Positions 7,352-32,046 of a stretch of DNA of 37,712 nt are shown here, piece after piece. Made by a program: the position numbers and the translations under genes. The stretch comes from a virus, in the IMG/VR virus record IMGVR_UViG_3300017917_001091, positions 1 to 37,712 of that record; one strand, written 5' to 3'. Position 1 is the stretch's first letter. Each line of letters begins with the position of its first letter. The notes under the pieces were generated by a model. The model was not told where the DNA came from, made no database searches, and worked only from the letters and a program-made list of their open reading frames with translations.

Positions 7352-7357
7352 AGTTAA

Positions 7358-7990: not shown

Positions 7991-7991
7991 A

Positions 7992-8591: not shown

Positions 8592-10309
8592 TGGATATAA
8601 GAGAGATAAGACCATCATCAAAGGTAGACAATCTTTTTGGATTTTCTCCAGTTGTAGCACAAGGTGGTGCAGAATCAACAATAACATTTAATAATATCTT
8701 ATACAAGATTCACTTATTTACAAATGTTGGATCTGATACTTTTAGAGTTATTGATTCTGGAACAGATGGAAAAGTTGAAGTTTTGGTAGTTGCTGGTGGT
8801 GGCGGTGGAGGAATGGACATGGGTGGCGGTGGTGGCGGTGGTGGTCTTATATCTACCCCATATATTGTCAGATCTGGTGAAAACATATCACTATCTGTAG
8901 GTGCTGGTGGATTAGGTGCACCAGGTGGATCAGAAAGAAGAAGTGATAATGCTGGTCCAAATCCAGGAGGTCACCAGTTTACTGTTTCTGCAACAAATGG
9001 TCAGAATTCTACTTTTGGCAACCTTACAGCAATAGGTGGTGGTTATGGAGGAAGCTCATATTTTGACTACACTCCAAATTATGGCGTAGGTTCATCTGGA
9101 GGGTGTGGTGGTGGAACTAGTGGGTATAGTAATGGAGGAGTAAAAGCAGGTCAAGCAGGTACTTCTGGTCAAGGATTTAGAGGCGGTCAAGGTGGTGGTC
9201 AATATTATTCTGGTGGTGGAGGTGGCACTGGAGAACCAGGCGTTGATTCAACTGGAACCCCACACGGAGGAAATGGAGTTTTAAATAACATATTAGGCTA
9301 TGATCTATATTGGGGTGGTGGAGGTGGTGGGTCTGCATATAGTGCATCAACTGGAGGAAATGGTGGAAGAGGTGGAGGTGGCGGTGGAGCCATAGGAACA
9401 ACATATGGTGGATCTGGATATAATGATGGTCAAAATGGTGGTGGTGGTGGACCAAATCAATGGGCACAAACAAGAGGTGGTAATGGTGGAACAAACACTG
9501 GTGGTGGAGGTGGTGGTGGTTCTCACTATAATGCAAGTAATAGTGGTGGGGATGGTGGAAGTGGAATTGTCATAGTTAGATATCCATTACAAAAGGTAAC
9601 AGATGCATATCCAACAGAAAATTTAAAATTACTTTTAGATGCTGGTGATACTAGATCATATCCAGGATCAGGAACAACTTGGACAGACTTAAGTGGCAAT
9701 GAAAATAATTTTACTATTTTATCAACTGCATATAACAGTAGTGGTGTTAAATATATGGATTTCAATGGAAGTTATGGATGTGCTAAAAAAGTTAATTCAG
9801 ATATGATAATTTATGGACCAGTAACATTTGTTGTCTGGACTAGAATTAAAACATCAACATCTGAATGGAGAACATTGTTAAGAGGACTAAGTTCTGGTCA
9901 AGACCATCAAGTAATTATAGAGGCTGGTGGATATAGAGTTGGAATGTATGATAATGATAGAGGAACTGGATTTAATACAGATGGATACTCTCAAACTTCA
10001 ATTCCTGGATGGAACACAGGTCAGTGGAATATGTTGGTTTGGAGATGGAATCCAGGTGGAGCAAATTATTATACATTGTCACTAAATGGAAGTCCACAAA
10101 CAATTGTTTCAGCAAATACATCAATTAATACAAGATTTAAAACTGGTATATGTTCTATTGGTGCATATAATAATGGAAATCAAAATGATCCATCAAATGC
10201 AAATCAGTATTGGGGAGATATTGCAAAACTATATGGATATAATAGAGTTTTAACAGATGCTGAAGTATTACAAATATTTAATAATGATAGATCAAGATTT
10301 GGAATTTAA
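8591..10309 (+). CDS. Glycine-rich adhesin with LamG-like domain
   Basis: Predicted adhesin of 572 residues. I chose the ATG at 8591, which overlaps the previous stop (TAATG); an in-frame ATG at 8570 lies inside the upstream gene. Residues 65-340 are a glycine-rich domain bounded by VEVLVVAGGGGGG and GSGIVIVRYPL, like the 5920 protein. From about 350 a second domain begins (LKLLLDAGDTRSYPGSG-TWTDLSGN) and ends with YNRVLTDAEVLQIFNND. This is the LamG/concanavalin-like pattern for carbohydrate binding. Joining a polyglycine-type bundle to a lectin-type domain suggests a composite receptor-binding tip. Confidence 0.75.
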   Translation: MDIREIRPSSKVDNLFGFSPVVAQGGAESTITFNNILYKIHLFTNVGSDTFRVIDSGTDGKVEVLVVAGGGGGGMDMGGGGGGGGLISTPYIVRSGENISLSVGAGGLGAPGGSERRSDNAGPNPGGHQFTVSATNGQNSTFGNLTAIGGGYGGSSYFDYTPNYGVGSSGGCGGGTSGYSNGGVKAGQAGTSGQGFRGGQGGGQYYSGGGGGTGEPGVDSTGTPHGGNGVLNNILGYDLYWGGGGGGSAYSASTGGNGGRGGGGGGAIGTTYGGSGYNDGQNGGGGGPNQWAQTRGGNGGTNTGGGGGGGSHYNASNSGGDGGSGIVIVRYPLQKVTDAYPTENLKLLLDAGDTRSYPGSGTTWTDLSGNENNFTILSTAYNSSGVKYMDFNGSYGCAKKVNSDMIIYGPVTFVVWTRIKTSTSEWRTLLRGLSSGQDHQVIIEAGGYRVGMYDNDRGTGFNTDGYSQTSIPGWNTGQWNMLVWRWNPGGANYYTLSLNGSPQTIVSANTSINTRFKTGICSIGAYNNGNQNDPSNANQYWGDIAKLYGYNRVLTDAEVLQIFNNDRSRFGI

Positions 10310-10318
10310 TGATATAAT
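10310..10318 (+). promoter_or_regulatory. Extended -10 promoter after a stop codon
   Basis: TGATATAAT starts directly after TAA (10307-10309). GGAGG follows at 10319-10323 and the ATG is at 10328. The predicted transcript start falls at about 10325, so the GGAGG would mostly be excluded from this RNA and could serve read-through messages only. Confidence 0.65.
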
Positions 10319-10327
10319 GGAGGAACT

Positions 10328-10675
10328 ATGGCAACATTTTCTAAACTAGCACTTTCTGGATCAACCAATGGTAAGCCAATATCAGTTTCTGCATCAGCTA
10401 CCCCTGGAACTATAATTCACACAGCACAGTCTGGAACATCTGGGCTAGATGAAGTATGGCTTTATGCTGTTAATACATCTGCATCAGCAGTAAAACTTAC
10501 AGTAGAATTTGGCGGTACTACAAGTGTTGAAAATATAGAATTAACGCTAACTGGAGAAAGTGGTCTTGTTTTAGTTATTCCAGGACTAGTATTAAATAAT
10601 TCTGAAGTTGTTAGAGCATTTGCTGGAACTGCAAGTGTTATTTCAATTTCAGGATATGTAAATAGAATATCTTAA
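10328..10675 (+). CDS. Small conserved phage structural protein
   Basis: Protein of 115 residues: MATFSKLALSGSTNGKPI, then TPGTIIHTAQSG, DEVWLYAVNTS, and an end reading VIPGLVLNNSEVVRAFAG and ISGYVNRIS. This matches a small beta-sandwich protein often found beside fibre genes in aquatic phages and usually listed as structural or hypothetical. No enzyme motif is present. It probably forms a small virion or fibre-linked part. GGAGG lies before the start, and a promoter just upstream makes it its own unit. Confidence 0.65.
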   Translation: MATFSKLALSGSTNGKPISVSASATPGTIIHTAQSGTSGLDEVWLYAVNTSASAVKLTVEFGGTTSVENIELTLTGESGLVLVIPGLVLNNSEVVRAFAGTASVISISGYVNRIS

Positions 10676-10683
10676 TCTATAAA

Positions 10684-10692
10684 TGGTATAAT
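10684..10692 (+). promoter_or_regulatory. Extended -10 promoter, near-leaderless
   Basis: TGGTATAAT ends 9 bases before the ATG at 10702. No -35 element or ribosome binding site is visible. Confidence 0.7.
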
Positions 10693-10701
10693 TAATATAC
10701 T

Positions 10702-10953
10702 ATGTCTACAATTTTTCCATTATCTGCGTCAGTTGGTCAAATATTTGATGGATATCAATATGATGGCTCTAAATGGTTATTATTAGGATATAAAAATTCA
10801 TTACCTTCCCAGGTTGGAAACGCAGGTAAGTATTTAAGAACTGATGGAGCCACATTATCATGGCAGCCAGTAGATGTCTCAAGTGATTTAGTAATTGATG
10901 GTGGATTTGCTACAGATACATATGAAATTGTTTATGATGGCGGAACGCCTTAA
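10702..10953 (+). CDS. Short fibre-like protein
   Basis: Protein of 83 residues made of known modules: a head FPLSASVGQIFDGYQYDGS as in the 4922 fibre, the LPSQVGNAGKYLRTDGA-LSWQ module, and a tail VIDGGFATDTYEIVYDGGTP. The DGGTP end resembles C-termini of other phage fibre-like proteins. It is far shorter than its paralogues, so it may be a stub carrier, an attachment adaptor, or a trimmed fibre. It overlaps by 4 bases the convergent gene on the other strand. It has its own promoter and no ribosome binding site. Confidence 0.65.
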   Translation: MSTIFPLSASVGQIFDGYQYDGSKWLLLGYKNSLPSQVGNAGKYLRTDGATLSWQPVDVSSDLVIDGGFATDTYEIVYDGGTP

Positions 10954-11162
10954 ATATTACTACTTGCTGATCTTTCATTAATAGAATCAATTTCATTAAT
11001 TACTTCAAAAGACCAAGAATTAATTCCATCTTTAAATTTATTATAATGATGTCCACAAAAATATAATTCACCATTTATACCCTTGGCTAAAATAAATGCC
11101 TGAGCACCACAACGATCACAACGGTCTGCAATTTTTAATATTTTTTCTTTTGTTTCTGTCAT
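10950..11162 (-). CDS. DUF7455-like zinc protein, antisense to operon
   Basis: Protein of 70 residues on the minus strand. RCDRCGAQAFILAK (C15, C18) followed by GELYFCGHHYNK (C36, H38, H39) is the pattern of the small actinobacterial DUF7455 proteins, which likely bind zinc through CxxC and CGHH. Their role is unknown; bacterial versions occur near sigma-factor genes. Here it is one of only two minus-strand genes and is strong evidence for an actinobacterial host. Its ATG lies 10 bases after an extended -10 (TGTTATAAA on the minus strand, 11181-11173). It could be a host-derived regulator of early or late switching, but that is inference. Confidence 0.8.
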   Translation of the reverse strand: MTETKEKILKIADRCDRCGAQAFILAKGINGELYFCGHHYNKFKDGINSWSFEVINEIDSINERSASSNI

Positions 11163-11172
11163 TTTTTCCCCG

Positions 11173-11181
11173 TTTATAACA
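11173..11181 (-). promoter_or_regulatory. Minus-strand extended -10 promoter
   Basis: Read on the minus strand this is TGTTATAAA, 10 bases before the ATG at 11162. It lies 3 bases from the plus-strand extended -10 at 11185-11193, so two RNA polymerases could not bind both at once. Confidence 0.6.
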
Positions 11182-11184
11182 TTA

Positions 11185-11193
11185 TGGTATACT
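11185..11193 (+). promoter_or_regulatory. Plus-strand extended -10 promoter
   Basis: TGGTATACT serves the membrane/coiled-coil gene. It overlaps an in-frame ATG at 11184, which makes that ATG an unlikely start because it would not be transcribed. Confidence 0.65.
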
Positions 11194-11237
11194 TAATTTT
11201 ATATTCTTTAATAGGAGTTTACCATAAAAAAGTGAAT

Positions 11238-11543
11238 ATGTCAATATGGATTATTGAAAACTGGTCCACATTATTATCCATTGGAACTCTTTTATCTGTA
11301 GGATATTTTACAGTTAGAAAATTTGAAAAAATTCTTGGAAAAGATTCAAAGGGTAGAACAATAGCAGATCGTCTAGACAGAGTAGAGCACCAATTATTTC
11401 CAAATGGTGGATCAAGCCTAGCTGATAAGGTAAACTGTTTATCAGATGACCAAGCAGAAATAAAGGCAGATTTAAAAGCAGTAAATAGAGAATTAAAAAC
11501 AGTTCATGACGTACTAATAGCATATATAGCAGATAAGAAATAG
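11238..11543 (+). CDS. Membrane-anchored coiled-coil protein, DUF2746-like
   Basis: Protein of about 101 residues. One membrane segment (WSTLLSIGTLLSVGYFTV) near the N-terminus is followed by a charged helix and the motif EHQLFPNGGSSLADKV, then a predicted coiled coil (DQAEIKADLKAVNRELKTV). The NGGSSL motif after a membrane segment is typical of actinophage DUF2746-type proteins near lysis and tail genes. It may be a holin partner or a tail/lysis accessory; the family function is not established. I chose ATG 11238; GTG 11232 is possible. AGGAG at 11213-11217 is rather far upstream. The in-frame ATG at 11184 overlaps the promoter and is rejected. Confidence 0.6.
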   Translation: MSIWIIENWSTLLSIGTLLSVGYFTVRKFEKILGKDSKGRTIADRLDRVEHQLFPNGGSSLADKVNCLSDDQAEIKADLKAVNRELKTVHDVLIAYIADKK

Positions 11544-17795: not shown

Positions 17796-19280
17796 ATGAC
17801 TAAAGCAAAAAATCTAGCAGACTTTTCACCAGGAGCAGTTGACATTTCTAGTATAAATGTTACTAAGAATCCAATTTCTCCAAATAGATTTAGTCCTTAT
17901 GTAGATTCTGAAATTACAATTTTTGGAACATTTCCATCATCTACTAGTCAGCCAACTATAGTATTTTCTTTTAGCGGTGGAACATTTTCTGTACCATCTC
18001 AAAGAATATCTTCTTATGATGTTGATAAAATAGTTTTAACTACTGGAGTTAGAGTTTTTCCAGCAAAAGAATTTACATCAGTTACAGTTACATTTGGATC
18101 AGAATCTGGTACATCAAACATAAAATTAATTTCAAGTGCAGCACCATATTATTTAGATTATAGACAAGTAGTCACAATTCCAGCAATGTCAACTCCTGGA
18201 TCATCTGGTTCTGTTACATATTCTGTTTTAAGTGGATCACTACCACCAAACTTTACTTTAAACTCAGATGGAACAATATATGGCTGGTATCAAGAAGCTT
18301 ATACTAATGCAGACTCTATAAGATATACAGCAGTAATTAGAGCAACAGATTCTACTGCAAAAACTTGGGAAGAGACTGTAGAAGTAAATATTAGAATTCC
18401 ATTTTTATATAGACAAGTAATTACAACAGGATACGTTGCTGGTGGGTACAAAGATTCTGTTCCATGGGCAGAAGTAAATAAGATACTACACTCAAATGAT
18501 ACAGCTACAAATCTTGGAGATCTTTTACAAAATACACATAACTATACTTCTGGAGCATGTAATAGAGATCGTGGATTCATATGGGGTGGAGGAGCAATGA
18601 ATCCTGGAAACTATACCTATACTTCAGTATTTAATATGAGAAATGATACAACTTATTCAAAAACTTCTGCAATGGATACGCCAGTAACAGTTGGAGATGC
18701 TGGAACAGTACAAAAAGAGCATACAAAAGCATGGATTGCAAACGGTCTTGGATCATCTGTAGTTCTTAGATATGACCTAGTTACAGAACAAGCTTCTACA
18801 ACATTTGCCTTATCTCATCTACAAAATGATGGAACTGGTGCAGGTGGTGTATTTAGCGAAACAGACGGATGGTTCTGGGCTGATGGTTCTGCCATGAAAC
18901 TAAATTTTGCAACTGAAACACAAACAAATCCAGGTGTAAGAGTTGGTGCACATGGTCAGCAAAAAGGTATGCCATCAAAGGTTGGATATGGTTGGGCTGG
19001 AAATGAGGGGTCTTATAATGGTGGGTATCAATTAAGAAAATTTAATACTGCTACAGAAACTAATGAGACAATTGTTCCAAAGCCAATTGGAAATTCTGGA
19101 GAAGAGAATTTTACAATGGGACAGCATGAGCAATATATGCTTGGCATGTATGATAGTGGTCAAAATAATAGAGCTTGGAAATTTAGCTATACAACAGATG
19201 TTGGATATGAAGGCGGAGCATCAATGCAACCAAAGGGTAAGCCTGGTAGAAGTTCTGGACATGGATATTGGAGAGATTAA
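17796..19280 (+). CDS. Tail adhesin, Ig-like plus propeller-like
   Basis: Protein of 494 residues. Head MTKAKNLADFSPGAVDISS is a known phage fibre start. Residues 25-115 look like an Ig-type beta domain with YVDSEITIFGTFPSS. Residues 125-205 contain SYTVTYSVLSGSLPP-like text (VTYSVLSGSLPPNFTLNSDG), a putative Ig/cadherin-like fold. From about 210, repeated units with GYVAGGY, RGFIWGGG, GWFWADG and YGWAGNEG suggest a kelch-like propeller. It ends GHGYWRD. It has no ribosome binding site but a promoter 7 bases upstream. It probably binds a surface glycan. Confidence 0.65.
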   Translation: MTKAKNLADFSPGAVDISSINVTKNPISPNRFSPYVDSEITIFGTFPSSTSQPTIVFSFSGGTFSVPSQRISSYDVDKIVLTTGVRVFPAKEFTSVTVTFGSESGTSNIKLISSAAPYYLDYRQVVTIPAMSTPGSSGSVTYSVLSGSLPPNFTLNSDGTIYGWYQEAYTNADSIRYTAVIRATDSTAKTWEETVEVNIRIPFLYRQVITTGYVAGGYKDSVPWAEVNKILHSNDTATNLGDLLQNTHNYTSGACNRDRGFIWGGGAMNPGNYTYTSVFNMRNDTTYSKTSAMDTPVTVGDAGTVQKEHTKAWIANGLGSSVVLRYDLVTEQASTTFALSHLQNDGTGAGGVFSETDGWFWADGSAMKLNFATETQTNPGVRVGAHGQQKGMPSKVGYGWAGNEGSYNGGYQLRKFNTATETNETIVPKPIGNSGEENFTMGQHEQYMLGMYDSGQNNRAWKFSYTTDVGYEGGASMQPKGKPGRSSGHGYWRD

Positions 19281-19996
19281 TGAAAGAAATAAGTGTAAAT
19301 ACTAACACTGAAAATTTATCTAATAGAGATATTGATTTTATATCAATGGCTATTAATTCTGAATGGGGTACACCAGATTTTAAAATGCGTCATTTTGTTG
19401 GAGATGCTCAAATTACTCCATTTGCAAAAATGAGACAGTTCATACTTGAGTTAAGATCAAGAGAAGAAATGATTGAAGATCTTGAGGTTGCAACAGAAAA
19501 AAGTTTAGCAATGATAGAGATTGAAAAAGAAAGAATTTCTGAAGAAGTTTCAGAGGCTAAGATAAAATTAATAAATGCAGAAATAAAAAGAATAAAGAAT
19601 GATTATAATCGTACAAGTAGAAGATTAAATGCTGCATATGAAGAAAGAAATAGAGTTTTAAGAATGATTCAAGAAATGTACGATAATGGTGAAGCTTATC
19701 TTTCAGATGGTAGAGAAATAAAAGATATTTTTCATACTCCAGAAGAGGATGAGTTAGAAAAAGAATTATGGACATTAAGACTAGGAAAACAAGCTGCTTT
19801 AGAAATGATTTCTTATGGAAGAATTGGTACTGGAAACATGGATGCAATATCTATGCTAAATGAAGACCAGCAAATTGAAGCAATCAAAGTTGCAATTGGA
19901 TATTCTTCTAAAGTAAATAACTCTCTTGGCTTAATAAATGATGAGGTTCAGTCACAGATAGAACATAATAAAATTTCATTGGAGCTTGAGAAGTAA
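19280..19996 (+). CDS. Coiled-coil protein of unknown function
   Basis: Protein of 238 residues. I use ATG 19280, which overlaps the stop before it (TAATG) and has GGAG 6 bases upstream; an in-frame ATG at 19268 lies within the upstream gene. The middle (about 50-130) is a long charged helix, with FAKMRQFILELRSREEMIED, then IEIEKERISEEVSEAKIKL, consistent with a coiled coil. No catalytic motif or membrane segment is seen. It is the first gene of a tight unit running to 23955. It may be a scaffold or chaperone for the protein after it. Function unrecognised. Confidence 0.6.
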   Translation: MKEISVNTNTENLSNRDIDFISMAINSEWGTPDFKMRHFVGDAQITPFAKMRQFILELRSREEMIEDLEVATEKSLAMIEIEKERISEEVSEAKIKLINAEIKRIKNDYNRTSRRLNAAYEERNRVLRMIQEMYDNGEAYLSDGREIKDIFHTPEEDELEKELWTLRLGKQAALEMISYGRIGTGNMDAISMLNEDQQIEAIKVAIGYSSKVNNSLGLINDEVQSQIEHNKISLELEK

Positions 19997-20718
19997 TGTA
20001 TTTTTTAACAAAAATAGATGATTTAAAACCAATTGGACCAATGAGTCAGTATGGTTATTGGCTATATTATCAAGTAGTTTATGTAGATCCAGAAAATGAA
20101 AGATATGTAGATCTATCTAAAATAAATACAAAAATTATTGATGAAGATGTTGCAAAAGCCTGGAGATTTGCAGGGGTTATAAAAGATTATGTAAGTGTTA
20201 GAAAAAATACCGATCTATATGAACAACTATTTTTATCTTCAAAAGAGCCTAGCGATGATAAAGAATATTATTATCTTACTGATGAAGACAAAGAAAATGG
20301 ATTAAAATTTATGAAAGCCGTTCTTGATTTAGTGGCAAAAGAATACTATGATGTACAGTTTGAAAAATTAAAGAAAAAATCTTCAGTTCTTGAAATGTCA
20401 ACTTGGGAACAACAAAAACAGGAAGCACTTTTATTAAAACAAGATCCACTAGCTGAAGCACCAGTAATATCAATACTGGCTGAAAATAGGGGAATATCAA
20501 AGCAAGAATTTGCTGACCTAGTTTTAGCAAATGTAAATGAATATAACCTAGAATTAGCCAATTTATTATCTAAACAACAAAATATTACCCAGCAAATTAA
20601 GAATTGCCAAACTATGCGTGAATGTGCTATACTAATGCACGATAGATTTGGATACCATGTTGGTGCTGCCTTGGCTGAAGAAGACAACATTGACTATCTT
20701 CCAAAATTTGACCTTTAG
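19996..20718 (+). CDS. Fibre-assembly-chaperone-like protein
   Basis: Protein of 240 residues. The C-terminal half has STWEQQKQEALLLKQDPLAE then PVISILAENRGISKQEFADL and repeated helices, ending DYLPKFDL. The phrase W..Q..EA...D..A..P.I..LA..RGI...EFA resembles tail-assembly proteins of the DUF4376 kind, which help fold phage fibres. The first 130 residues (MYFLTKIDDLKPIGPMSQ onward) are unfamiliar. It starts at a TAATG overlap with GGAG upstream. I would call it a chaperone candidate; a virion part is also possible. Confidence 0.5.
   Translation: MYFLTKIDDLKPIGPMSQYGYWLYYQVVYVDPENERYVDLSKINTKIIDEDVAKAWRFAGVIKDYVSVRKNTDLYEQLFLSSKEPSDDKEYYYLTDEDKENGLKFMKAVLDLVAKEYYDVQFEKLKKKSSVLEMSTWEQQKQEALLLKQDPLAEAPVISILAENRGISKQEFADLVLANVNEYNLELANLLSKQQNITQQIKNCQTMRECAILMHDRFGYHVGAALAEEDNIDYLPKFDL
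20604..20633 (+). promoter_or_regulatory. Possible internal promoter for fusion gene
   Basis: TTGCCA (20604-20609) and TGCTATACT (20625-20633) are 18 bases apart (hexamer to hexamer) inside the preceding gene, about 90 bases before the ATG at 20725. It could transcribe the fusion and permease genes separately. Coding coincidence is possible. Confidence 0.35.
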
Positions 20719-20724: not shown

Positions 20725-22371
20725 ATGTTTAGTGTACCTATTAATCCAAAACTCTCAGAAAAAGAGTTTGGTGAATTTTATACTTTTTTACTAGATTATA
20801 AAGACTGGATTTACGACCTATATTTTACATGCAGAATGCCACCATTTGTACAAGATGCAATGGGGGATGTTTTAGCAACTGAAGAAGATACATTTATTGC
20901 AATAGATACAGCATTAATGATACAAGAAAGAACTGGAATACCAGTATCTGCAGTATTTAATAATATTTATGTAAGACCATCTCAACAAAACTTAGATCTA
21001 TTTATTGAAAATTTTAGACAGTTATATGATGCTGGAATTAAATCTGCAACAATTCCGCACACTCATTGGATAGCGACTGGTCAAATACAAAAAGAGTTTC
21101 CAGAATTATTTATTAAAAATACAATACTTAGAAATGTTACAGAACCAAGAGAAGTTGCTGCACTAGCAGAGGCTGGATTTCATTATGTAAATCTTGATAG
21201 AGATTTGATGAGAGACCAAGAAAAGCTATTAAAGATAAAGAAGGCAAAAGATAAATATGGAATAATGCTGTCTATTCTTGCTAATGAGGGGTGTTTAGGT
21301 GGATGCTCTATGATGGATGAGCACTACCATTTTAATAATACAAGATCTGGAGAAAGTCCGCAATACTTTAATGATCCAATAAGTAGAGTTTCTTGTAAAA
21401 ATTGGGATGCACTTGATCCTGCAGTATATTTAAAGACCGCAAATTTGCCACCTTGGAAAGAGGACTGGGATCAGATGTTTTCTGAATTTGGCATAGATGT
21501 TATAAAAATGCACGGTAGAGAGTCAAAATCAAGACTTCGTGAAACAATGGATATTATAAAAAGATATGCAAATAATCAAGAAATACTATTTGATGGATTT
21601 AATAGTTTTATAGAAGAAACAAATCTAAAAGATAAGCCAATAAATGTATGGCGTAATAAGATTAAGAATTGCAAATTTGAATGCTGGGATTGTGGCTTTT
21701 GTAATAAAATTTATGACGCTAAATATGGAAAACAAGTAAATGATAAAGTTGTTTTTGTAACTCAAGAACTAATTGATTCTGTAAATAAAAACGTTGAAAT
21801 TGATGTTCCAGGGTTTACTAGCCAAAGAGTAATAAACTTATTAAATGCATTAGGAAAGGGTAGTAGCAATTATCTAGAGATTGGTAGTTATCTTGGCTCT
21901 ACGGCCTGTGCAGTGGCTAAAAACAATAATCTGTCAATAACCTGTATAGATAACTGGTCAGAGATAAATCTAAAGCCAAAAGAGAATCAGGTGGAAATTC
22001 CAGAGGCAACAAAAGATAAATTCTTTGAAAATATTACTAGATACATTTCTAATAAAACAAAGTTAAATGTTATAGACTCAGATTTTTCAAAAGTTGATAT
22101 ATCAAACATTTCAAATATAGACTTTTTCTTTTATGATGGTCCAAAAGAACCAGAGGCTGTTTCTTATGCAGTTCAAAAATTTGCCCCAACTTTTGCAAAA
22201 AATGCCATACTTGCATTTGATGATGCAAACTGGTATAATGTAGTTCAAGGTGCTAATGACGGAATCGCCAAAAGCAATCTTAATGTAATCTATTCAAAGA
22301 AAATGTTGAATGAGATAGAGTCAGAAAGGGACTTCTGGAATGGAATTTACATTGTCGTTATTGACAAATAA
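20725..22371 (+). CDS. U32-like Cys-cluster domain fused to methyltransferase
   Basis: Protein of 548 residues with two parts. Residues 1-335 resemble the TIM-barrel of U32-family proteins: VNLDRDLMRDQEKLLKIKKA then LANEGCLGGCSMMDEHYHF. Cysteines at 190, 194, 224, 316, 320, 323 and 326 (the last four in NCKFECWDCGFC) could hold an iron-sulfur cluster, as bacterial UbiU/UbiV and RlhA-type relatives do. Residues 360-548 form a class I methyltransferase-like domain: YLEIGSYLGSTA (motif I), CIDNW, FFFYDGPKEPEA and ILAFDDANW, like the Methyltransf_24 group. Substrate unknown. AGGAA precedes the ATG. The gene overlaps the permease by 32 bases. A proteolytic role is unlikely to be safe to assume from the U32 label. 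Confidence 0.65.
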   Translation: MFSVPINPKLSEKEFGEFYTFLLDYKDWIYDLYFTCRMPPFVQDAMGDVLATEEDTFIAIDTALMIQERTGIPVSAVFNNIYVRPSQQNLDLFIENFRQLYDAGIKSATIPHTHWIATGQIQKEFPELFIKNTILRNVTEPREVAALAEAGFHYVNLDRDLMRDQEKLLKIKKAKDKYGIMLSILANEGCLGGCSMMDEHYHFNNTRSGESPQYFNDPISRVSCKNWDALDPAVYLKTANLPPWKEDWDQMFSEFGIDVIKMHGRESKSRLRETMDIIKRYANNQEILFDGFNSFIEETNLKDKPINVWRNKIKNCKFECWDCGFCNKIYDAKYGKQVNDKVVFVTQELIDSVNKNVEIDVPGFTSQRVINLLNALGKGSSNYLEIGSYLGSTACAVAKNNNLSITCIDNWSEINLKPKENQVEIPEATKDKFFENITRYISNKTKLNVIDSDFSKVDISNISNIDFFFYDGPKEPEAVSYAVQKFAPTFAKNAILAFDDANWYNVVQGANDGIAKSNLNVIYSKKMLNEIESERDFWNGIYIVVIDK

Positions 22372-23257
22372 TCAACAATATCTAATTTTGTTAGCAGTTG
22401 TAATGGGTCTTTCCTTTACCGCTAAAAAAACTCAGATATTTTTACCTGTTTATAGATGGATTTCTACAAAGGTAAAATCAAAAAGAGCATTAGTAGCAAT
22501 TATCTCTACTATATCAGGAATTCTTCCTATTAGTGGTCGTGTTGCTGTTTCTGCAGGTGTACTTGATACAATTGCACCAAAAAATGAAAAAAGAAAGAAG
22601 TTTGGAACAATTGACTATCTTTCAACACACCACTATTACTTTTGGTCTCCGCTAGAGGCAACAGTTTTAGTTCCAATGGCAGCACTAGGAATTACATATT
22701 TTGAATTTATTTCAAGAATATATCCACTTCTTGGCGTAGCATTAATAGTTATTCTTTATTATATTTTTAGTGTATTAAAAGAAGATGATGTTGAACTAGA
22801 CTTTTCTAAAAAAGAGCAGGTATCAACTTGGAAAGAAGATAGGAAACAAATTGCTTCATATGCAAAAACACTTATATTTGTTGCAGCAATTATTGCACTT
22901 GGAAATATTGCAAAGGCAAATTCAGACTATCTAAAATCTATACTAGAAGGATCTCATACAAATGGATTCTTGTTACTTGTTGTAGTTATTGGATTCCTTG
23001 CAAGTTTTGCACTTGGAAGCAGTAGTAAGTTTGCTGGATTTACAGCACTATCAACATCAGTATTTGGAATAGAATATTTACCACTTTTCTTTGCAGTTGA
23101 CTACGCTGGATATATGTTATCCCCAGTTCATAAGTGTCTAGCAATTGGTAAAAGCTATTTTGGTACAGATTTAAAAGAATATTATAAAGCAATATTTGCT
23201 TTAGTAATTCCAATTATTGCAGTATCAATTCTATTACTACTATTTGTCACAACATAA
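22340..23257 (+). CDS. DUF401-like membrane permease
   Basis: Integral membrane protein of 305 residues with about seven hydrophobic segments (roughly 14-28, 50-62, 105-118, 127-145, 176-190, 209-230, 285-303). GILPISGRVAVSAGVLD near 60-76 and GYMLSPVHKCLAIGKSYFG near 257-275 match the conserved parts of the DUF401 family, transporters related to the ion transporter superfamily with unknown substrate. It starts inside the end of the fusion gene (AAAGGG 7 bases before the ATG), so translation is coupled. Such a transporter is unusual among phage tail genes. It may move a small anion or metabolite during infection; a lysis role is less likely given its length and family motifs. Confidence 0.65.
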   Translation: MEFTLSLLTNNQQYLILLAVVMGLSFTAKKTQIFLPVYRWISTKVKSKRALVAIISTISGILPISGRVAVSAGVLDTIAPKNEKRKKFGTIDYLSTHHYYFWSPLEATVLVPMAALGITYFEFISRIYPLLGVALIVILYYIFSVLKEDDVELDFSKKEQVSTWKEDRKQIASYAKTLIFVAAIIALGNIAKANSDYLKSILEGSHTNGFLLLVVVIGFLASFALGSSSKFAGFTALSTSVFGIEYLPLFFAVDYAGYMLSPVHKCLAIGKSYFGTDLKEYYKAIFALVIPIIAVSILLLLFVTT

Positions 23258-23955
23258 TGAAAAAAATAAAGTTTATACCAAATAGTCAGGATGCATACGA
23301 TAAATTAGATGCACCAAAACCAGCATCTAAAAGTGTTCCTGACTGGTATAGACTATCTACCAAATTTATTGGTGGAAAGATGGAAATTAAAGAATATGGT
23401 ATAAATAAAGATTTAAAACTTTGTGTGCCATTCTTTGACTCATTATTAGCTGGGTATCAAATAGAACTAATATGTGACTTAATTGTGAGAAAAAACTCAG
23501 ATGGATCAAGAAGTTTTTCTTGGGCTGAAGAACCAGAGCCAATTGCATTTAGAAGTAGTGATATAGCGAGCACTCTACCAAGACCATATGGTCATACAAA
23601 ACAAATGTACGCATGGAAAACATCATGGGGATTTAAGACACCAAAAGGATATAGTACACTAATAACTCATCCATTTAATAGGTTTGACCTACCATTCATA
23701 ACTACATCTGGAATAATGGATACGGACGAGTACTCTTTAGGCGGAGAAGTTCCATTCTTTTTAAATGAATCTTTTGAAGGAATCATACCAGCTGGTACAC
23801 CAATACTTCAAGCATTACCATTTAAGCGTGATAGCTGGAAGTCTGAAAAAGAAGAATTTAAAGATGGTTGGGTAAAAAGACAGGCATACTTAGTAAATAA
23901 AGTAATCTATGGTGGATATAAAAAACTAATGTGGCATAGAAAATCATATAAATAA
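23257..23955 (+). CDS. DUF6065-like phage protein, copy 1
   Basis: Protein of 232 residues, first of three paralogues. Shared blocks are PAPKPASKSVPDWYR-like text (here PKPASKSVPDWYRLS), CVPFFDSLLAGYQIEL, LPRPYGH, WGFKTPKGYSTLITHPFNR, FDLPFITTSGIMDTD and GIIPAGTPILQALPFKR. These match, as far as I can judge, phage DUF6065-like proteins of unknown function. The pattern suggests a compact beta fold. It has no membrane segment or known active site. ATG overlaps the permease stop (TAATG), so the two are coupled. A structural or metabolic role cannot be told from sequence. Confidence 0.6.
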   Translation: MKKIKFIPNSQDAYDKLDAPKPASKSVPDWYRLSTKFIGGKMEIKEYGINKDLKLCVPFFDSLLAGYQIELICDLIVRKNSDGSRSFSWAEEPEPIAFRSSDIASTLPRPYGHTKQMYAWKTSWGFKTPKGYSTLITHPFNRFDLPFITTSGIMDTDEYSLGGEVPFFLNESFEGIIPAGTPILQALPFKRDSWKSEKEEFKDGWVKRQAYLVNKVIYGGYKKLMWHRKSYK

Positions 23956-24025: not shown

Positions 24026-24708
24026 TGGCAAAACAATTATTAAGTTCCGCTAAAGGTTGGAGTGGATCAATTCCAGTAATTGATACATATATCCCAGAAC
24101 TTGGCGATTCTGCAAATATTGAAGACGCTTTTAAATTATTTATGTATGGACAGATTGAACCTGGTGGAGAAAGCCAAGTACAGTCAACAAGTCTTTATTC
24201 AAGCATTGTTGCAATAAAAACAACTGCTGATGGGGCTAGTGGACTAGTCTCAAGTCATAATTCAGCATCAATAAATGTTCATGGATTATCAGGTGGTGCT
24301 GCGGTTGTTGGAACAACTAGTACACAAACTCTTACAAATAAAACATTAGAAAATCCATTAGTTAGTGGATCTGTAACAGTAACTGGAAATGTTATTGGAC
24401 ATGTTGATATATATAGTAAAACTGCAAACTATACATTGACATTACTAGATGATGGAAGCCTTATACAGATGAATGTTTCTTCTGCAAATACTTTAACTGT
24501 TCCCTTAAACTCTTCTGCAGCATTTCCAATTGGAACACAAATAACAATAGTTCAGTCAGGGTCAGGACAAACTACGATTGGTAAGGAAGACCAAAGCATA
24601 TCTTTAAATGCAACACCAGGACTAAAACTTAGAGCACAATGGTCAACTGCTACATTAATAAAGTTAGGGACAGATTCCTGGTTAGTAACAGGAGACCTAA
24701 CGGCATAA
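24025..24708 (+). CDS. Tail fibre protein
   Basis: Predicted fibre of 227 residues. Head MAKQLLSSAKGWSGSIPVID with YIPELGDSANIEDAFKLF is a known fibre start in aquatic phages. Then SLVSSHNSASINVHGLSG-type shaft, TQTLTNKTLENPLVSGSV, and the C-terminal domain FPIGTQITIVQSGSGQTT, TPGLKLRAQWSTATLIKL and GDLTA, nearly matching the end of the 4922 fibre. Both are followed at once by a tail protein beginning with an NIGI segment, so a two-gene module has been used twice. The start overlaps the stop of the leader ORF. Confidence 0.75.
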   Translation: MAKQLLSSAKGWSGSIPVIDTYIPELGDSANIEDAFKLFMYGQIEPGGESQVQSTSLYSSIVAIKTTADGASGLVSSHNSASINVHGLSGGAAVVGTTSTQTLTNKTLENPLVSGSVTVTGNVIGHVDIYSKTANYTLTLLDDGSLIQMNVSSANTLTVPLNSSAAFPIGTQITIVQSGSGQTTIGKEDQSISLNATPGLKLRAQWSTATLIKLGTDSWLVTGDLTA

Positions 24709-25637
24709 TGAGATTAATAAATATAGGTATTGTTGCTAAAAAGTTTAGAGATACTTTTATAAGACCTAATGAAGTTCTTTCAAGATCATCTGATGGCTCC
24801 TTATGGAATATTGTAAGAGGATCTTGGGAAGTATTGTCAAATAAGCTATCAACATCTAGTGCTCCAAATACATATCCAATTGCTTCAACAAAAACTCCAT
24901 CAGAAAATGTTGACATATCAATAAAGGATGTTTCTCAAGGAGTTACTGCAGCACTATGGATTACAGATAGTGGAAATTGGTGGGGTCTTGGAATAGATAG
25001 AGAATCTCTTACACAATGTGAGACATGCTATAATTATGACTCTTTTATATATTACTATCCTTGTGGAACAACATATGTGCAAAATTGTAATGCATGGTCT
25101 TGTGCATCATGGACATATACTTGTAACTCAAGAACGTGTAATGGAAACTGCAAGTCTTGGACAAATCAGGGTGGAGTCTATAGATGTGCAAACTGGTTTG
25201 GTGCATGTTGTGTATCTACTACAAACTGCACTGGTGGATATAATGTTTGTAATGCTTTTTATACTGCAACAAATACAAATTATTGTCCAGCTGTTGGCTA
25301 TAATATTACTGGAAGTTATCAGTGTAATTGTGTTACAAGCTATCCTCAATATATTAGATTTATACAGTCAGTTGCAAATACAGTATCAGTAGTATCACAA
25401 AATGTAGTTTCTTCTGTAATAGGATCAATAAAGATATTAGTAAGAAAAACTGGTAGTAATTCTGCTACAGTAACAGCAAAAGCCTATTCTGATACAGGGT
25501 TAGTGTCTCAAATAGGCAATGACATAGTATATTTGCCATCAAATATTGCAATAACTCCAAATTATGGTATAATTATAAAACCATCAAGTTATTCGCAAGG
25601 ATCAACCTCTGGTGAAATAGAAATAGAAAGTATCTAG
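24708..25637 (+). CDS. Cysteine-rich tail protein
   Basis: Protein of 309 residues. I use ATG 24708 (TAATG overlap with the fibre); the longer in-frame reading from 24639 lies within that fibre. Residues 25-98 (SDGSLWNIVRGSWEVL then ALWITDSGNWWGLGID) look like half of a concanavalin-like domain. An insert at 104-208 holds 16 cysteines in about 105 residues, including CETC, CC and CNC. After it the beta domain resumes (YIRFIQSV to GEIEIESI). Dense cysteine spacing suggests disulfides or metal binding in an extracellular tip. The head (MRLINIGIVAKKF) resembles the start of the 5920 glycine-rich protein. Confidence 0.65.
   Translation: MRLINIGIVAKKFRDTFIRPNEVLSRSSDGSLWNIVRGSWEVLSNKLSTSSAPNTYPIASTKTPSENVDISIKDVSQGVTAALWITDSGNWWGLGIDRESLTQCETCYNYDSFIYYYPCGTTYVQNCNAWSCASWTYTCNSRTCNGNCKSWTNQGGVYRCANWFGACCVSTTNCTGGYNVCNAFYTATNTNYCPAVGYNITGSYQCNCVTSYPQYIRFIQSVANTVSVVSQNVVSSVIGSIKILVRKTGSNSATVTAKAYSDTGLVSQIGNDIVYLPSNIAITPNYGIIIKPSSYSQGSTSGEIEIESI
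25565..25573 (+). promoter_or_regulatory. Possible internal extended -10 promoter
   Basis: TGGTATAAT lies in the end of the cysteine-rich gene, about 75 bases before the ATG at 25648. It could start a message for the small-protein/DUF6065-like block. It is inside coding sequence, so chance is possible. Confidence 0.4.
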
Positions 25638-25890: not shown

Positions 25891-26598
25891 GTGAAAATAA
25901 TAAAATTCTCTTCTGAGTCTTCAAGATATATTGGTGAACCAAGTCCGATAAAAAATATGATTCCAGAATGGTACAGATTAGCTGAATCATTTTATGTGGA
26001 CGAAGAAGATTCTAAAAATGAAGATGGCTCTGAAAAAAGATCAAATGGATTAAAAACTTGTGCACCATTCTTAGACGCACTAATATCTGGTTATGCATTG
26101 GTAACTCCGTTTGATATATTTGTTTCAATTTCTGAAGATGGAGATTTAAAAATTTCTTGGAATGGTCCAAATGATTTAGATGGATTTATTAAAGAAAGAG
26201 ATAAAAGATCTGGGGCAACAATTCCTAGACCAGCAGGTCATTTACCAAATCATCTTATTTGGGCAAATAAGTGGGGGTTTAAGTCTCCAAGAGGATACAG
26301 TATATTGGTTACGCATCCACTAAATAGATTTGATTTACCATTTACAACAATGTCTGGAATAATTGATAGTGATAAGTTTTTTGCTAATGGTAATTTACCA
26401 TTCTTTATTAAAGAAGGATTTTCTGGAATGATTCCAGAGGGCACTCCTATAGCACAGTTAATACCAATAAAAAGAAAAAAATGGATTATGTCAAAAGATC
26501 AATCTTTAGTTGATGAATATCAAAGACAGGGGACATCTGTTAGAAAAAAGGGTCTTAGTTATAAAAATGTTTTATGGCAAAGAAAGGATTATAGATGA
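25891..26598 (+). CDS. DUF6065-like phage protein, copy 2
   Basis: Protein of 235 residues starting at GTG, with the same blocks as copy 1: IPEWYRLAESF, KTCAPFLDALISGY, IPRPAGH, WGFKSPRGYSILVTHPLNR, DLPFTTMSGIIDSD and MIPEGTPIAQLIPIKRKKW. An acidic insert (VDEEDSKNEDGSEKR) follows the WYR block. The ribosome site is weak (AGAAAG). Its stop overlaps the next ATG (ATGA). Function unknown. Confidence 0.6.
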   Translation: MKIIKFSSESSRYIGEPSPIKNMIPEWYRLAESFYVDEEDSKNEDGSEKRSNGLKTCAPFLDALISGYALVTPFDIFVSISEDGDLKISWNGPNDLDGFIKERDKRSGATIPRPAGHLPNHLIWANKWGFKSPRGYSILVTHPLNRFDLPFTTMSGIIDSDKFFANGNLPFFIKEGFSGMIPEGTPIAQLIPIKRKKWIMSKDQSLVDEYQRQGTSVRKKGLSYKNVLWQRKDYR

Positions 26599-26921
26599 CT
26601 AAAGGTATAAGACACAAAGATGGAATTGCCTACTTAAGTACATTTGATTTAATAAAAAGATTTTTTACAAAAAATAAAAAATTTAAAAATAAAAAAGATC
26701 TTCCAAGTTCAAGTGAGGCAACTATTCCAGATGGTATTCATGTAAATCACTTAGCCATAGTTCTTGATGGAGAAGTTCAGGAAGTAATTCGTGCTCAAAA
26801 TAAATTGGCAGCATTGTTTTTAAGTGAACCTTTATTTGTAGAATTTGATCCAAAAGATAAGTATGTGAAAATTGGATGGAAATATGATGGTAAAAACTTT
26901 ATAGAGGTTGAAAATGACTAA
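26595..26921 (+). CDS. Small companion protein, copy 2
   Basis: Protein of 108 residues. A basic N-terminal part (LIKRFFTKNKKFKNKKDL) precedes a core LAIVLDGEVQEVIRAQNKLA, LFLSEPLFVEFDP and IGWKYDGKNFIEV that matches the 25648 protein. It overlaps both neighbours by a few bases, so the three genes are probably translated together. The basic extension, absent from copy 1, may bind nucleic acid or be a later addition. Confidence 0.6.
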   Translation: MTKGIRHKDGIAYLSTFDLIKRFFTKNKKFKNKKDLPSSSEATIPDGIHVNHLAIVLDGEVQEVIRAQNKLAALFLSEPLFVEFDPKDKYVKIGWKYDGKNFIEVEND

Positions 26922-27573
26922 AAAGATAAAGTTTATATCAGAAAAGCCAGAATATAATATTGAGCATCCTGTACCAGCTAGTAGACTTGTTCCAGAATGG
27001 TATAGAAAAATGCCAGGAGAAAAAGATAGGATTGAAACGGTTAAAAAATGCATACCATTTTTAGATGCACTAACTTCTGGATATGCAATAACTTTACCAG
27101 TTGATGTTTATTATAATGATGAGGCTAAGAAGTTTATGTATAACTCACCATTTAAAATTGAATCAGACCATGTGCCATCGCAAACAGAAGATGTTGAAAT
27201 AGATGACTCTTACGACACTATTCCACATAAATGGTTGAACAATTGGAAGATAGAGACTCCAAAAGGTTATAGTTGTTTATTTATTCATCCTTTAGATAGG
27301 ATGGATTTACCATTTTATTCTTTTAGTGGAATTGTTGATACGGACAGACATCCAGTTATTATAAATTTTCCATTTGTAATTAAAAAGGGATTTAATGGAG
27401 TTATTCCTAAAGGCACTCCAATTATTCAAATAATTCCTTTTAAAAGAGAAAGCTGGGAATCAAAGGTAATTGATGATATAGAATATAATGAACCAGTTGA
27501 TCAATTTAAAATAATGAATCCACCTTTCAATACATATAAAAGAAATTGGTGGACCAAGAAGAGTTTTAAGTAG
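26914..27573 (+). CDS. DUF6065-like phage protein, copy 3
   Basis: Protein of 219 residues. I use ATG 26914 with GAGG 6 bases upstream; a TTG at 26908 is in frame. Blocks are PASRLVPEWYRKMPG, KKCIPFLDALTSGYAITLP, TPKGYSCLFIHPLDRMDLPF, SGIVDTD and GVIPKGTPIIQIIPFKRESW. It lacks the RPxGH block seen in the other two copies and is therefore the most diverged. It overlaps the previous gene by 8 bases. Function unknown. Confidence 0.6.
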   Translation: MTKKIKFISEKPEYNIEHPVPASRLVPEWYRKMPGEKDRIETVKKCIPFLDALTSGYAITLPVDVYYNDEAKKFMYNSPFKIESDHVPSQTEDVEIDDSYDTIPHKWLNNWKIETPKGYSCLFIHPLDRMDLPFYSFSGIVDTDRHPVIINFPFVIKKGFNGVIPKGTPIIQIIPFKRESWESKVIDDIEYNEPVDQFKIMNPPFNTYKRNWWTKKSFK

Positions 27574-27880: not shown

Positions 27881-28198
27881 ATGGTACAGCTAACACCAGA
27901 ACAGAATGCAATGTTGCAGTCTTATGGTCGTTCATTTCTAGGTGCAGTAATTGCACTATATTTAGCAGGTGTAACAGATGCATATCAATATCTTAATGCA
28001 TTTGTTGCAGCAGTAGCACCAGTTGCAATTCGTTACTTTAACAAGAATGATGTTGCATTTGGTAAAATTTCAGGAAATTCAACACCTGAACAAGTTGCTG
28101 AAGAAGTTGTTAAGGCAGTAAAGAGTGTTGCTAAAAAGACACCAGCAAAGAAAGCCCCAGCAAAGAAAGCTACCGCAAAGAAGACAAGCAAAAAGTAA
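27881..28198 (+). CDS. Holin candidate with basic tail
   Basis: Protein of 105 residues. SYGRSFLGAVIALYLAGV (about 14-31) and AFVAAVAPVAIRYFN (about 41-55) form one or two membrane segments, followed by NDVAFGKISG. This layout matches small actinophage and cyanophage proteins called holins. The C-terminus is a run of AKK/PAKK repeats (KTPAKKAPAKKATAKK), strongly basic and like histone H1 tails; such basic ends are common on holins and may touch anionic lipids or DNA. The full-consensus promoter implies strong expression. If a holin, it should time lysis. No lysin is found beside it. The stop overlaps the next ATG. Confidence 0.6.
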   Translation: MVQLTPEQNAMLQSYGRSFLGAVIALYLAGVTDAYQYLNAFVAAVAPVAIRYFNKNDVAFGKISGNSTPEQVAEEVVKAVKSVAKKTPAKKAPAKKATAKKTSKK

Positions 28199-29289
28199 TG
28201 TCTAAGCCAACCGTTTCATTTTTAACTTATGACTGGACATTTGGTGTCAAGCCATTACAACCTAATGGTTGTGCATGGTATAGATGCTACCTTCCAATGA
28301 AGGAGTTATCAAAAAATGGTTGGGAGACTGGTATTGGTATTCCAGGATTTAATCCAGAACATGGTCTTGGAATACTTATACCAGATCAAAAAGCAATTCA
28401 TGGTTGGGAAATAGTAGTATTAAAATTAATAATGCTAGAAAGATTTATTGATCAGGTAAGAATATCAAAAGAACTTGGACAAAAGATAGTTGTTGATATT
28501 GATGATCATATGGAAGGATTAGAAGAAACAAATCTTGCATATAAGACAACTGATCCATCTTCAAATCCAAATAATAATAGAAAGCATTATGTTGCAATTA
28601 TGGATCAAGCAGATGCATTAATTACCTCTACTCCATTCCTATTTGATTTTTACAAAAATAAATATCCAGAAAAGCCTATATTTTTAGTTAGAAATGGTAT
28701 TGATATTGATAGATGGCCAATTCATAATGATCACAAAGGAAGGCTTCCAACGTTTGGATGGGTTGGTGCAACTCCATGGAGATCTGGGGACTTAGAAATA
28801 CTAAATCCGTATTTTGGTCAATTTTTAAGAACTAGACATCTGAAGTTTCATCATGCAGGTTCAATAAAAAATGCTCCAAAGGCATATGTTCAAGCAGGTG
28901 TTGATAAAAATATTTCAAGTGATGAGCCAATGAAGACTATGCTTGGTGTTCCAGAACTATATTCAAAAAAGATTGATGTTGGAATTGTTCCACTTAGAGA
29001 TGTTCCATTTAATCATGCCAAGTCATATTTGAAAGGTATGGAGTATGCAGCAGCTGGAGTTCCATTTATAGCAAGTGGTCTTCCAGAATATAGATTGCTT
29101 GAAGAAGGTGGGGTTGGTAGAACTGCAAATACTCCACAGGAATGGATTGGGCATATGGAAGAATTATTAGATCCAAAAGTAAGAAAAGAAGAAAAAGAAA
29201 AGAATCTTGAGAATCTAAAGAGTAAGTTTTCAATGACTCAGCGTGGTCTTGAATGGGCAGAAGTGCTAGAAAAAATCAAGATGTTATAA
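28198..29289 (+). CDS. Glycosyltransferase, GT-B type
   Basis: Protein of 363 residues. GCAWYRCYLPMKELSKNGWE at 24-43 and a VVDIDDH segment near 98-104 are typical of a phage and bacterial group of family 4-like glycosyltransferases. FLVRNGIDIDRWP (162-174) opens the donor domain, and VGIVPLRDVPFNHAKSYLK with EYAAAGVPFIAS gives the C-terminal donor site. It differs from the 3842 enzyme, with no clear EX7E as there. It starts in a TAATG overlap with the holin candidate, so the two are coupled. Acceptor unknown: teichoic acid, capsule or virion protein. Confidence 0.75.
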   Translation: MSKPTVSFLTYDWTFGVKPLQPNGCAWYRCYLPMKELSKNGWETGIGIPGFNPEHGLGILIPDQKAIHGWEIVVLKLIMLERFIDQVRISKELGQKIVVDIDDHMEGLEETNLAYKTTDPSSNPNNNRKHYVAIMDQADALITSTPFLFDFYKNKYPEKPIFLVRNGIDIDRWPIHNDHKGRLPTFGWVGATPWRSGDLEILNPYFGQFLRTRHLKFHHAGSIKNAPKAYVQAGVDKNISSDEPMKTMLGVPELYSKKIDVGIVPLRDVPFNHAKSYLKGMEYAAAGVPFIASGLPEYRLLEEGGVGRTANTPQEWIGHMEELLDPKVRKEEKEKNLENLKSKFSMTQRGLEWAEVLEKIKML

Positions 29290-30080: not shown

Positions 30081-30102
30081 GATAAAGGGTGTGCATCACA
30101 TA

Positions 30103-32046
30103 ATGTCGTTTATTGACTCAAACGGATCTATTACAGATCCATATCGTAATTTTATTCATATTTCAAGATATGCTCGTTGGATTGAAAATGAAAATCGTAG
30201 AGAAACCTGGCAGGAAACTGTTGACAGGTATACAAACTTTATGAAAGATCATTTGGTACTAAACTATGGTTATAGTCCAAATGCAAAAATATTCAATGAA
30301 GTAAAAGAAGCTATCTTAAATCATAAGATTATGCCGTCAATGAGAGCATTGATGACTGCAGGTCCAGCATTAGAACGTGATCATATTGCAGCATACAACT
30401 GTTCATTTATTGCAGTTGATAGCCCTCGTGCTTTTGACGAAGCAATGTATATTCTAATGAATGGAACAGGTGTTGGATTTAGCGTTGAGCAAAAATATAC
30501 AAATGCACTTCCAGCAATCTCAGAAGAGTTTCATCCAACAGATACAACAATTGTTGTTGATGACTCAAAGCTTGGTTGGGCCAAGGCATACAAAGAGTTA
30601 ATTGCACTACTTTATCAAGGTCAAATTCCAAACTGGGATATGTCAAAGGTGCGTCCTGCTGGAGCAAGACTAAAAACTTTTGGTGGTCGTGCTTCAGGAC
30701 CAGAGCCATTAAATGATCTATTTAAATTTACAATTGAAACATTTAAAATGGCTGCAGGTCGTAAGTTAAAACCAATTGAAGCACATGACATTATGTGTAA
30801 GATTGGAGAAGTTGTTGTAGTTGGTGGAGTAAGAAGAAGTGCTCTTATTTCTTTATCAAATCTTGATGATTTTGAAATGGCAAAGGCAAAGAGTGGTCAG
30901 TGGTGGGAAGGAAACGGTCAAAGAGCATTAGCAAATAACTCTGCTGTTTACAATACAAAACCAAATACTGCACAGTTCCTTCGTGAGTGGCGTAATCTAT
31001 ACGAATCAAAATCTGGTGAACGTGGTATTTTTAATATGGATAGTGTTCGTAAGCATATTGATAAATTTGGTCGTAGAGATTCTTCGCTAGTTGCAGGTAC
31101 AAATCCTTGTGGAGAAATTTTACTTCGTCCAAACGAATTCTGTAATCTTACAGAGGTTGTAATTGAAGCATCTGACAGCAGAGAAGATCTTCTTGAAAAA
31201 GTAAGACTTGCTACAATTTTGGGAACATGGCAATCAACCCTTACAAACTTTAAGTACATAAGAAAATCATGGAAAGATAACTGTGAAGAAGAAAGACTTC
31301 TTGGCGTATCTTTAACAGGTATCTATGGAAATAAATTAACTGCCACAAACAATGATAGTCTAGTTGATCTATTAAATGACATGAGAGACCTATCAGTTTT
31401 AACAAATAAAAATGAGGCAAAGAATTTAAATATTAATCCTTCAGTATCAATTACCTGTGTAAAGCCGTCAGGAACCGTTTCTCAGCTTACTGGGGTATCT
31501 TCTGGCATCCACCCATGGTATTCAGAATACTACATTAGAAGCGTTAGAGCAGACAATAAGGATCCTCTGACACAGTTCTTAAAAGATTCTGGAGTTCCAT
31601 TTGAACCAGATGTGATGAAGCCAGAAGCTACTACTGTTTTCTACTTCCCAATCAAGGCTCCAAAGAATGCAGTTCTTACAAAAGACTTAACTGCTATTGA
31701 TCACCTTGAAATGTGGAAGACATATAGAACAAACTGGACAGAACATAATCCTTCAGTGACTATCAATGTTCACGAACATGAATGGATGGGTGTTGGTGCA
31801 TGGGTATATGATAACTTTGATTCAATTGGTGGAGTATCTTTCTTACCAGCAGTTGAGCACTCATATAAACAAGCACCATACCAAGAGATTACAAAAGAAG
31901 AGTATGAAGAGTATGTCAAAAAGATGCCTGATACTATTCGTTGGGATATGCTTTCTTTATATGAGACAACAGATGGAACAACTGGAAGCCAAGAACTTTC
32001 TTGTGTTGCTGGATATTGTGAGATTGTAGATATTGCAGGTAACTAA
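30103..32046 (+). CDS. nrdJ: Class II ribonucleotide reductase (B12-dependent)
   Basis: Enzyme of 647 residues that reduces ribonucleotides (probably triphosphates) to deoxyribonucleotides with adenosylcobalamin, feeding phage DNA synthesis. NFIHISRYARW opens the protein; AYNCSF holds the first redox Cys (C100), GTGVGFS follows, GGVRRSALISLSNLDD is typical, and TNPCGEILL carries the radical-site Cys (C336). The end has SCVAGYC with a Cys pair (C634, C639) for re-reduction. All key parts are present, and length is a little under the monomeric type (about 740 in Lactobacillus). I prefer ATG 30103 over GTG 30091, which is too close to AAAGGG. CGT codons for arginine are commoner than in the fibre genes. 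The host or its surroundings must supply cobalamin. Confidence 0.9.
   Translation: MSFIDSNGSITDPYRNFIHISRYARWIENENRRETWQETVDRYTNFMKDHLVLNYGYSPNAKIFNEVKEAILNHKIMPSMRALMTAGPALERDHIAAYNCSFIAVDSPRAFDEAMYILMNGTGVGFSVEQKYTNALPAISEEFHPTDTTIVVDDSKLGWAKAYKELIALLYQGQIPNWDMSKVRPAGARLKTFGGRASGPEPLNDLFKFTIETFKMAAGRKLKPIEAHDIMCKIGEVVVVGGVRRSALISLSNLDDFEMAKAKSGQWWEGNGQRALANNSAVYNTKPNTAQFLREWRNLYESKSGERGIFNMDSVRKHIDKFGRRDSSLVAGTNPCGEILLRPNEFCNLTEVVIEASDSREDLLEKVRLATILGTWQSTLTNFKYIRKSWKDNCEEERLLGVSLTGIYGNKLTATNNDSLVDLLNDMRDLSVLTNKNEAKNLNINPSVSITCVKPSGTVSQLTGVSSGIHPWYSEYYIRSVRADNKDPLTQFLKDSGVPFEPDVMKPEATTVFYFPIKAPKNAVLTKDLTAIDHLEMWKTYRTNWTEHNPSVTINVHEHEWMGVGAWVYDNFDSIGGVSFLPAVEHSYKQAPYQEITKEEYEEYVKKMPDTIRWDMLSLYETTDGTTGSQELSCVAGYCEIVDIAGN

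Follow-up and report, generated by a model that had tools for sequence, protein, structure and literature searches.

A reduced phage DUF401 protein with a predicted ion-transporter fold and its pairing with outer-membrane barrels in related phages

The DUF401 gene and its neighbourhood

The window, that is, the whole stretch of DNA analysed here, is an IMG/VR virus record of 37,712 bp that is probably a fragment. Its open reading frame at 22340-23257 (ATG at 22340, stop at 23257, 305 amino acids) had been described in the original prediction as a DUF401-like membrane permease encoded among tail genes, and both parts of this description held: the product matches PF04165 with an E value of 1.6e-11 (44.7 bits against a gathering score of 24 bits), relatives of this protein also exceed that threshold, and tail-fibre or structural-type genes flank the locus on both sides. 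The protein also matches phrog_14035 (E 6e-76). Since dN/dS against relatives is 0.04-0.22, indicating purifying selection rather than a chance reading frame, this is a real gene. The features to which we refer below are the following.

19268-20718, + strand: c3 and c5, two conserved cassette genes upstream of the enzyme gene, phrog_1409 and phrog_1604 (PHROGs, locus comparison)
20725-22371, + strand: c2, the upstream enzyme, with a C-terminal Methyltransf_24 domain and an N-terminal part without assignment, phrog_1458 (Pfam, PHROGs, locus comparison)
22325-22331, + strand: Shine-Dalgarno-like AAAGGGA, 8 nt 5' of the DUF401 ATG and within the upstream gene (read from the sequence)
22340-23257, + strand: phage DUF401 transporter gene (putative), 305 aa, phrog_14035 (Pfam, PHROGs, AlphaFold2 model, Foldseek)
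22481-22573, + strand: predicted re-entrant hairpin 1, residues 48-78, tip LPISGR (model, alignment)
22604-22663, + strand: block GTIDYLSTHHYYFWSPLEAT, residues 89-108 (alignment)
22964-23065, + strand: predicted re-entrant hairpin 2, residues 209-242, tip GSSSK (model, alignment)
23120-23137, + strand: SPVHKC, residues 261-266, a possible pseudo-repeat of SPLEAT (weak self-match, E 0.15; alignment)
23257-23955, + strand: next gene, a phrog_7084 protein; members of this family frequently neighbour DUF401 in relatives (PHROGs, locus comparison)

The DUF401 frame overlaps the upstream one by 32 nt and the next one, which starts at 23257, by 1 nt. The overlap with the upstream enzyme gene had been taken to imply linked production, a proposal that we abandoned because the overlap is 32, 17 or 1 nt, or even a gap, among close relatives and because other lineages carry another upstream gene. 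The block c3-c5-c2-DUF401 is conserved, with c3-c5-c2 kept as neighbours in most relatives; the conserved linkage of DUF401 in relatives is nevertheless with outer-membrane barrels and not with the upstream enzyme.

Elsewhere in the window, three phrog_7084-type paralogues lie within 4.4 kb (23257-23955, 25891-26598 and 26908-27573), a very cysteine-rich frame at 24639-25637 overlaps the preceding one by 70 nt, and two glycosyltransferase-like genes (3842-4903 and 28198-29289) are found among structural genes. A ribonucleotide reductase of the B12-dependent type is encoded at 30091-32046, while cassette genes of the same phage resemble those of cyanophages.

Predicted fold and relation to other transporters

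An AlphaFold2 model built on 45 phage homologues (pLDDT 82, pTM 0.82) arranges the helices as two pseudo-repeats, each made of a crossing, an arm, a re-entrant hairpin, a broken helix and a crossing. We read the seven hydrophobic segments counted earlier, from the helices of the model and the fold match, as six membrane crossings and a pair of re-entrant helical hairpins. By the distribution of charges, the side of hairpin 1 faces the cytoplasm and the C-terminus is outside. At the sequence level, the internal repeat gives only a weak self-match (E 0.15).

When this model was compared with solved structures using Foldseek, the best PDB matches were VcINDY, TRAP SiaQM, NaDC3, NaCT and Pho90, with probabilities near 1.0, E values from 3e-3 to 0.1, so that even the best lies above a strict 1e-3 line, and a TMq of 0.58-0.66 for VcINDY; all top matches belong to one superfamily, the Ion Transporter superfamily. 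The hallmark of that superfamily, two repeats that each carry a re-entrant hairpin and a broken helix, is present in the model and agrees with the Foldseek matches. A sequence search of solved structures, including a profile search, found no convincing match. Model and matches support a predicted Ion Transporter/DASS elevator fold and, together with the PF04165 score, the transporter nature that had been proposed for this protein. The likeness to DASS proteins (VcINDY) and to TRAP QM subunits lies in the predicted fold, the two hairpins and the elevator-type architecture, whereas sequence similarity is very remote, the window protein has 305 residues against 445-610, and the SNT motifs of DASS sodium/dicarboxylate symporters are absent, the hairpin tips reading LPISGR and GSSSK instead.

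Alignment with a cellular DUF401 protein (COG1906/TIGR00529; Peptoclostridium WP_025436672, 405 aa) showed that the two belong to the same family, with hairpin and SP-H-C positions conserved, at an identity of ~20% for this one cellular protein. Compared with it, all phage versions lack the first ~55 residues (two helices) and the window's clade additionally lacks a two-helix linker, so that PF04165 is not covered in full. The window protein scores 51 bits against TIGR00529 (the AF0261 equivalog), far below the cut-off of 378, which the cellular comparator also misses (114 bits). The protein had been called a complete transporter; by alignment it is instead a reduced member of DUF401 within a phage-specific subfamily. 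The same subfamily includes the phrog_14035 proteins of the Synechococcus phages S-H25, S-CAM4, ACG-2014j and metaG-MbCM1, which are 34-36% identical to the window protein but longer (340-348 aa), since they retain the linker of about two helices; nine records of these four phages carry the gene as 'hypothetical protein'.

Several residues are fixed in the phage subfamily and differ in the cellular homologue, a comparison made between 73-74 phage sequences and one cellular DUF401 protein. Arg67, at the tip of hairpin 1, is invariant in 73 phage sequences and is Gly in the cellular protein; position 230, at the tip of hairpin 2, is Lys or Arg in all 74 and again Gly in the cellular protein; Lys265 is invariant in phage DUF401 proteins and replaced by Leu. 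Within the block GTIDYLSTHHYYFWSPLEAT, His97/98 and Glu106 are invariant, Glu106 being Ala in the cellular homologue. Both motif blocks quoted in the original prediction lie where the phage family is strongly conserved. Since the basic residues Arg67, Lys/Arg230 and Lys265 sit at or near both hairpin tips, the substrate of the phage carrier is probably small and anionic. To our knowledge, DUF401/COG1906 has no known substrate, and we located no transport assay of any DUF401 protein in the literature. As modelled, the conserved elevator core is reduced, which weighs somewhat against a working carrier of this small size. Although a multi-pass phage membrane protein encoded near structural genes could also suggest a lysis or holin-like protein, no holin or lysis family was matched in Pfam or PHROGs and the charged transporter core is conserved, making such a role extremely improbable.

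A search of IMG/VR with two conserved motifs recovered ~394 contigs with relatives. In a pattern-limited scan, none of the cellular contigs carrying the phage DUF401 motifs encodes a relative, which argues, within the limits of that scan, that the subfamily is old and phage-borne. Within the same limits, the gene is not a recent capture from the host, a possibility that the original prediction had raised for checking; the one cellular homologue compared is also distant. Cellular genes with the phage motifs were sought without success by such pattern-limited scans, as were cellular genes for the barrel introduced below.

Outer-membrane barrels beside DUF401 in related phages

In two relatives (L036 and L038), DUF401 is continuous in frame with an outer-membrane-type barrel, and the last DUF401 helix has the features of a signal peptide (in L036, MIKFYKTIGTFTFLILLSGIFSSAVNA/EE). 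A C-terminus outside the cytoplasmic membrane is consistent with such a C-terminal fusion through a last helix that serves as a signal peptide. In both genes (L036, 920-2554; L038, 6236-7858), translation might also begin at an internal in-frame Met before the last helix, giving a barrel precursor of its own in which that helix would be the signal peptide. Other relatives, including L035 and L085, encode the barrel in an adjoining gene of its own, complete with a signal peptide.

Searching for this main barrel family independently of DUF401 gave 80 loci, many of them near-copies (31 barrel-bearing DUF401 rows are left at <92% identity), and DUF401 was adjacent or fused in 74 of them (71 adjacent, 3 fused). 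The barrel precedes DUF401 in 63 of the 71 adjacent loci and follows it in 8, with a 13-nt overlap of the two genes common to ~60 loci. Two more of the 80 carry DUF401 ~2.3 kb away and four lack it; three of these four end at a contig edge, and the other (L148) lies on a 119-kb contig. The pair is kept in L100, L101, L102 and L160 despite differing surrounding genes.

Other outer-membrane partners were also found. A second, shorter and unrelated barrel (c27, DUF2490-like) immediately follows DUF401 in 14 of 15 loci, and the remaining locus lies at a contig end. In 8/8 loci, all of one lineage, the gene for a 597-aa TonB-receptor-like protein immediately precedes DUF401; in L083, this protein gives a weak plug-domain match (E 0.014, below the cut-off). 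This L083 protein (6217-8010) shows, by eye, a Bacteroidetes-style signal peptide and a TonB box. A porin-like protein in L046 (c70, 10279-11301; signal peptide, C-terminal KYKF, no Pfam match), encoded two genes after DUF401, occurs in too few loci to be counted as a further partner.

Pairing with the main barrel is distributed over deep DUF401 clades. Explaining the barrel label on the DUF401 tree takes 6 changes, of which strong branches force at least 3, indicating that phages have acquired or lost this partner repeatedly. No barrel was found in the window or in longer contigs of its clade, the main family is absent from three cyanophage genomes searched, which carry DUF401, and at many marine DUF401 loci no outer-membrane partner was recognised in the vicinity. 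Since complete cyanophages infect double-membrane hosts and many marine loci show no recognised partner, the barrel is not obligatory; in phages of double-membrane hosts that lack it, host porins may serve, or a partner may have escaped recognition.

DUF401 without a barrel in cyanophages, in the window's clade and in many marine phages would also fit a lone organic-acid permease, carried as an auxiliary metabolic gene of the usual kind, with its adjacency to barrels reflecting lineage-specific packing without functional coupling, and short overlaps are indeed normal in phage gene packing. This explanation appears distinctly improbable to us, considering that the barrel family almost never occurs without DUF401, that the gene order flips and one lineage has both as a single fused gene, and that the pair persists when other neighbours change, with an unrelated barrel showing the same tie.

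The model of the main barrel (pLDDT 89) has 12 strands, and its fold matches are FapF (the best), NanC, a COG4313 channel and KdgM. The partner barrel of relatives shares a predicted fold with these 12-strand channels but differs from them in being phage-only, in its TonB-box-like N-terminus and in its tie to DUF401; it is absent from the window. A TonB-box-like segment, such as LDEVVVTA, follows the signal peptide in most members, as judged by eye rather than by a statistic. The family does not have the make-up of TonB-dependent receptors (plug and 22-strand barrel), as there is no PF07715 match and the model has 12 strands. Relatives were found neither in a pattern-limited scan of cellular genomes nor in the isolate-phage collection.

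Since the barrel carries a TonB-box-like sequence, we infer that transport would be inward. The opposite direction, in which carrier and outer-membrane channel would expel a product made during infection such as a bilin or a halogenated tryptophan, could draw on the best fold match, FapF, being a secretion channel, and on the enzymes found beside DUF401 in some lineages, among them heme oxygenase with bilin reductase and tryptophan halogenase. We nevertheless hold export to be unlikely: the neighbouring enzymes vary by lineage, most bilin-reductase cassettes lack DUF401, TonB drives uptake in known systems, and most of the DASS and TRAP relatives import their substrates.

In some marine phages, among them L052 (9037-10337), L044 and L062, DUF401 is immediately followed by genes for heme oxygenase and ferredoxin-dependent bilin reductase. 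A heme or iron theme for DUF401 was dismissed by a control, since only 10 of 80 bilin reductase loci have DUF401 nearby and the association is thus incidental. Also beside DUF401, in marine contigs, are a tryptophan halogenase (L053, 5233-6789) and an IMP dehydrogenase/GMP reductase (L061, 6829-7992).

Host contrast and a candidate route across the envelope

The gene whiB is an actinobacteriophage marker (PMC6802176). Of the 13 contigs in the window's clade, 6 carry it, among them all five that reach at least 57 kb, as against 0 of 22 other DUF401 phage records of up to 251 kb; barrel-bearing phages carry no whiB. The window itself has no whiB but clusters within the clade of the whiB-bearing contigs (support 97-99), and its ribonucleotide reductase is nearest to those of Streptomyces phages, at 63%. 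These indirect lines of evidence support the view that the window's clade consists of phages of actinobacterial, single-membrane hosts, in keeping with the host that had been proposed. Among the long records, 5 have whiB and no barrel and 13 have a barrel and no whiB (Fisher p 1e-4), a contrast that involves one clade and so amounts to one evolutionary contrast, not many independent events. A cyanobacterial host for the window, suggested by the isolate matches, was rejected, since psbA occurs in cyanophages only (0 of 22 non-isolate contigs tested) and whiB is found in the window's clade.

Altogether, we consider it likely that phage DUF401 proteins are DASS/TRAP-like carriers that act with a phage outer-membrane channel in double-membrane hosts and alone in actinophages. 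The window gene product would be a minimal secondary carrier of the Ion Transporter superfamily in the cytoplasmic membrane, with two hairpin-bearing half-repeats and its C-terminus outside, which during infection would carry a small and probably anionic substrate through the membrane by an elevator-type motion. Many phages that infect double-membrane hosts would use this carrier as one half of a two-gene module, fused in one lineage; with an outer-membrane channel encoded by the phage as the other half, the module would span the entire envelope. The actinophage clade of the window, with hosts that would lack an outer membrane, has the carrier alone. We also lean, if only slightly, towards a broader proposal, namely a phage two-membrane system made of a DUF401 carrier and a dedicated channel, for which unrelated channels were recruited several times and the channel is absent for single-membrane hosts.

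Receptor-altering morons are well documented in phages and DUF401 genes lie near tail-fibre-type genes, so the same genes might instead remodel the envelope against superinfection, blocking or masking receptors, with the DUF401 fold not used for transport. We find this very improbable, because the hairpin and near-tip residues of the transporter core are strictly conserved and because a receptor blocker would need no conserved elevator carrier beside several unrelated barrels.

Phages carry metabolic enzymes and single transport parts; keyword matching in the open-access literature found no report of a phage carrier with its own outer-membrane channel. If our reading of a carrier working with such a channel is true, it would describe a virus-encoded trans-envelope importer and provide a first functional setting for the uncharacterised DUF401 family. 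Phage DUF401 genes are small, have closely tied partners and also occur as a single-gene fusion, which makes their function directly testable, and the contrast between actinophages and phages of double-membrane hosts offers a natural experiment on the role of the outer-membrane half. Viruses that encode both such a carrier and its outer-membrane channel would in effect be re-plumbing the entire envelope of the infected cell.
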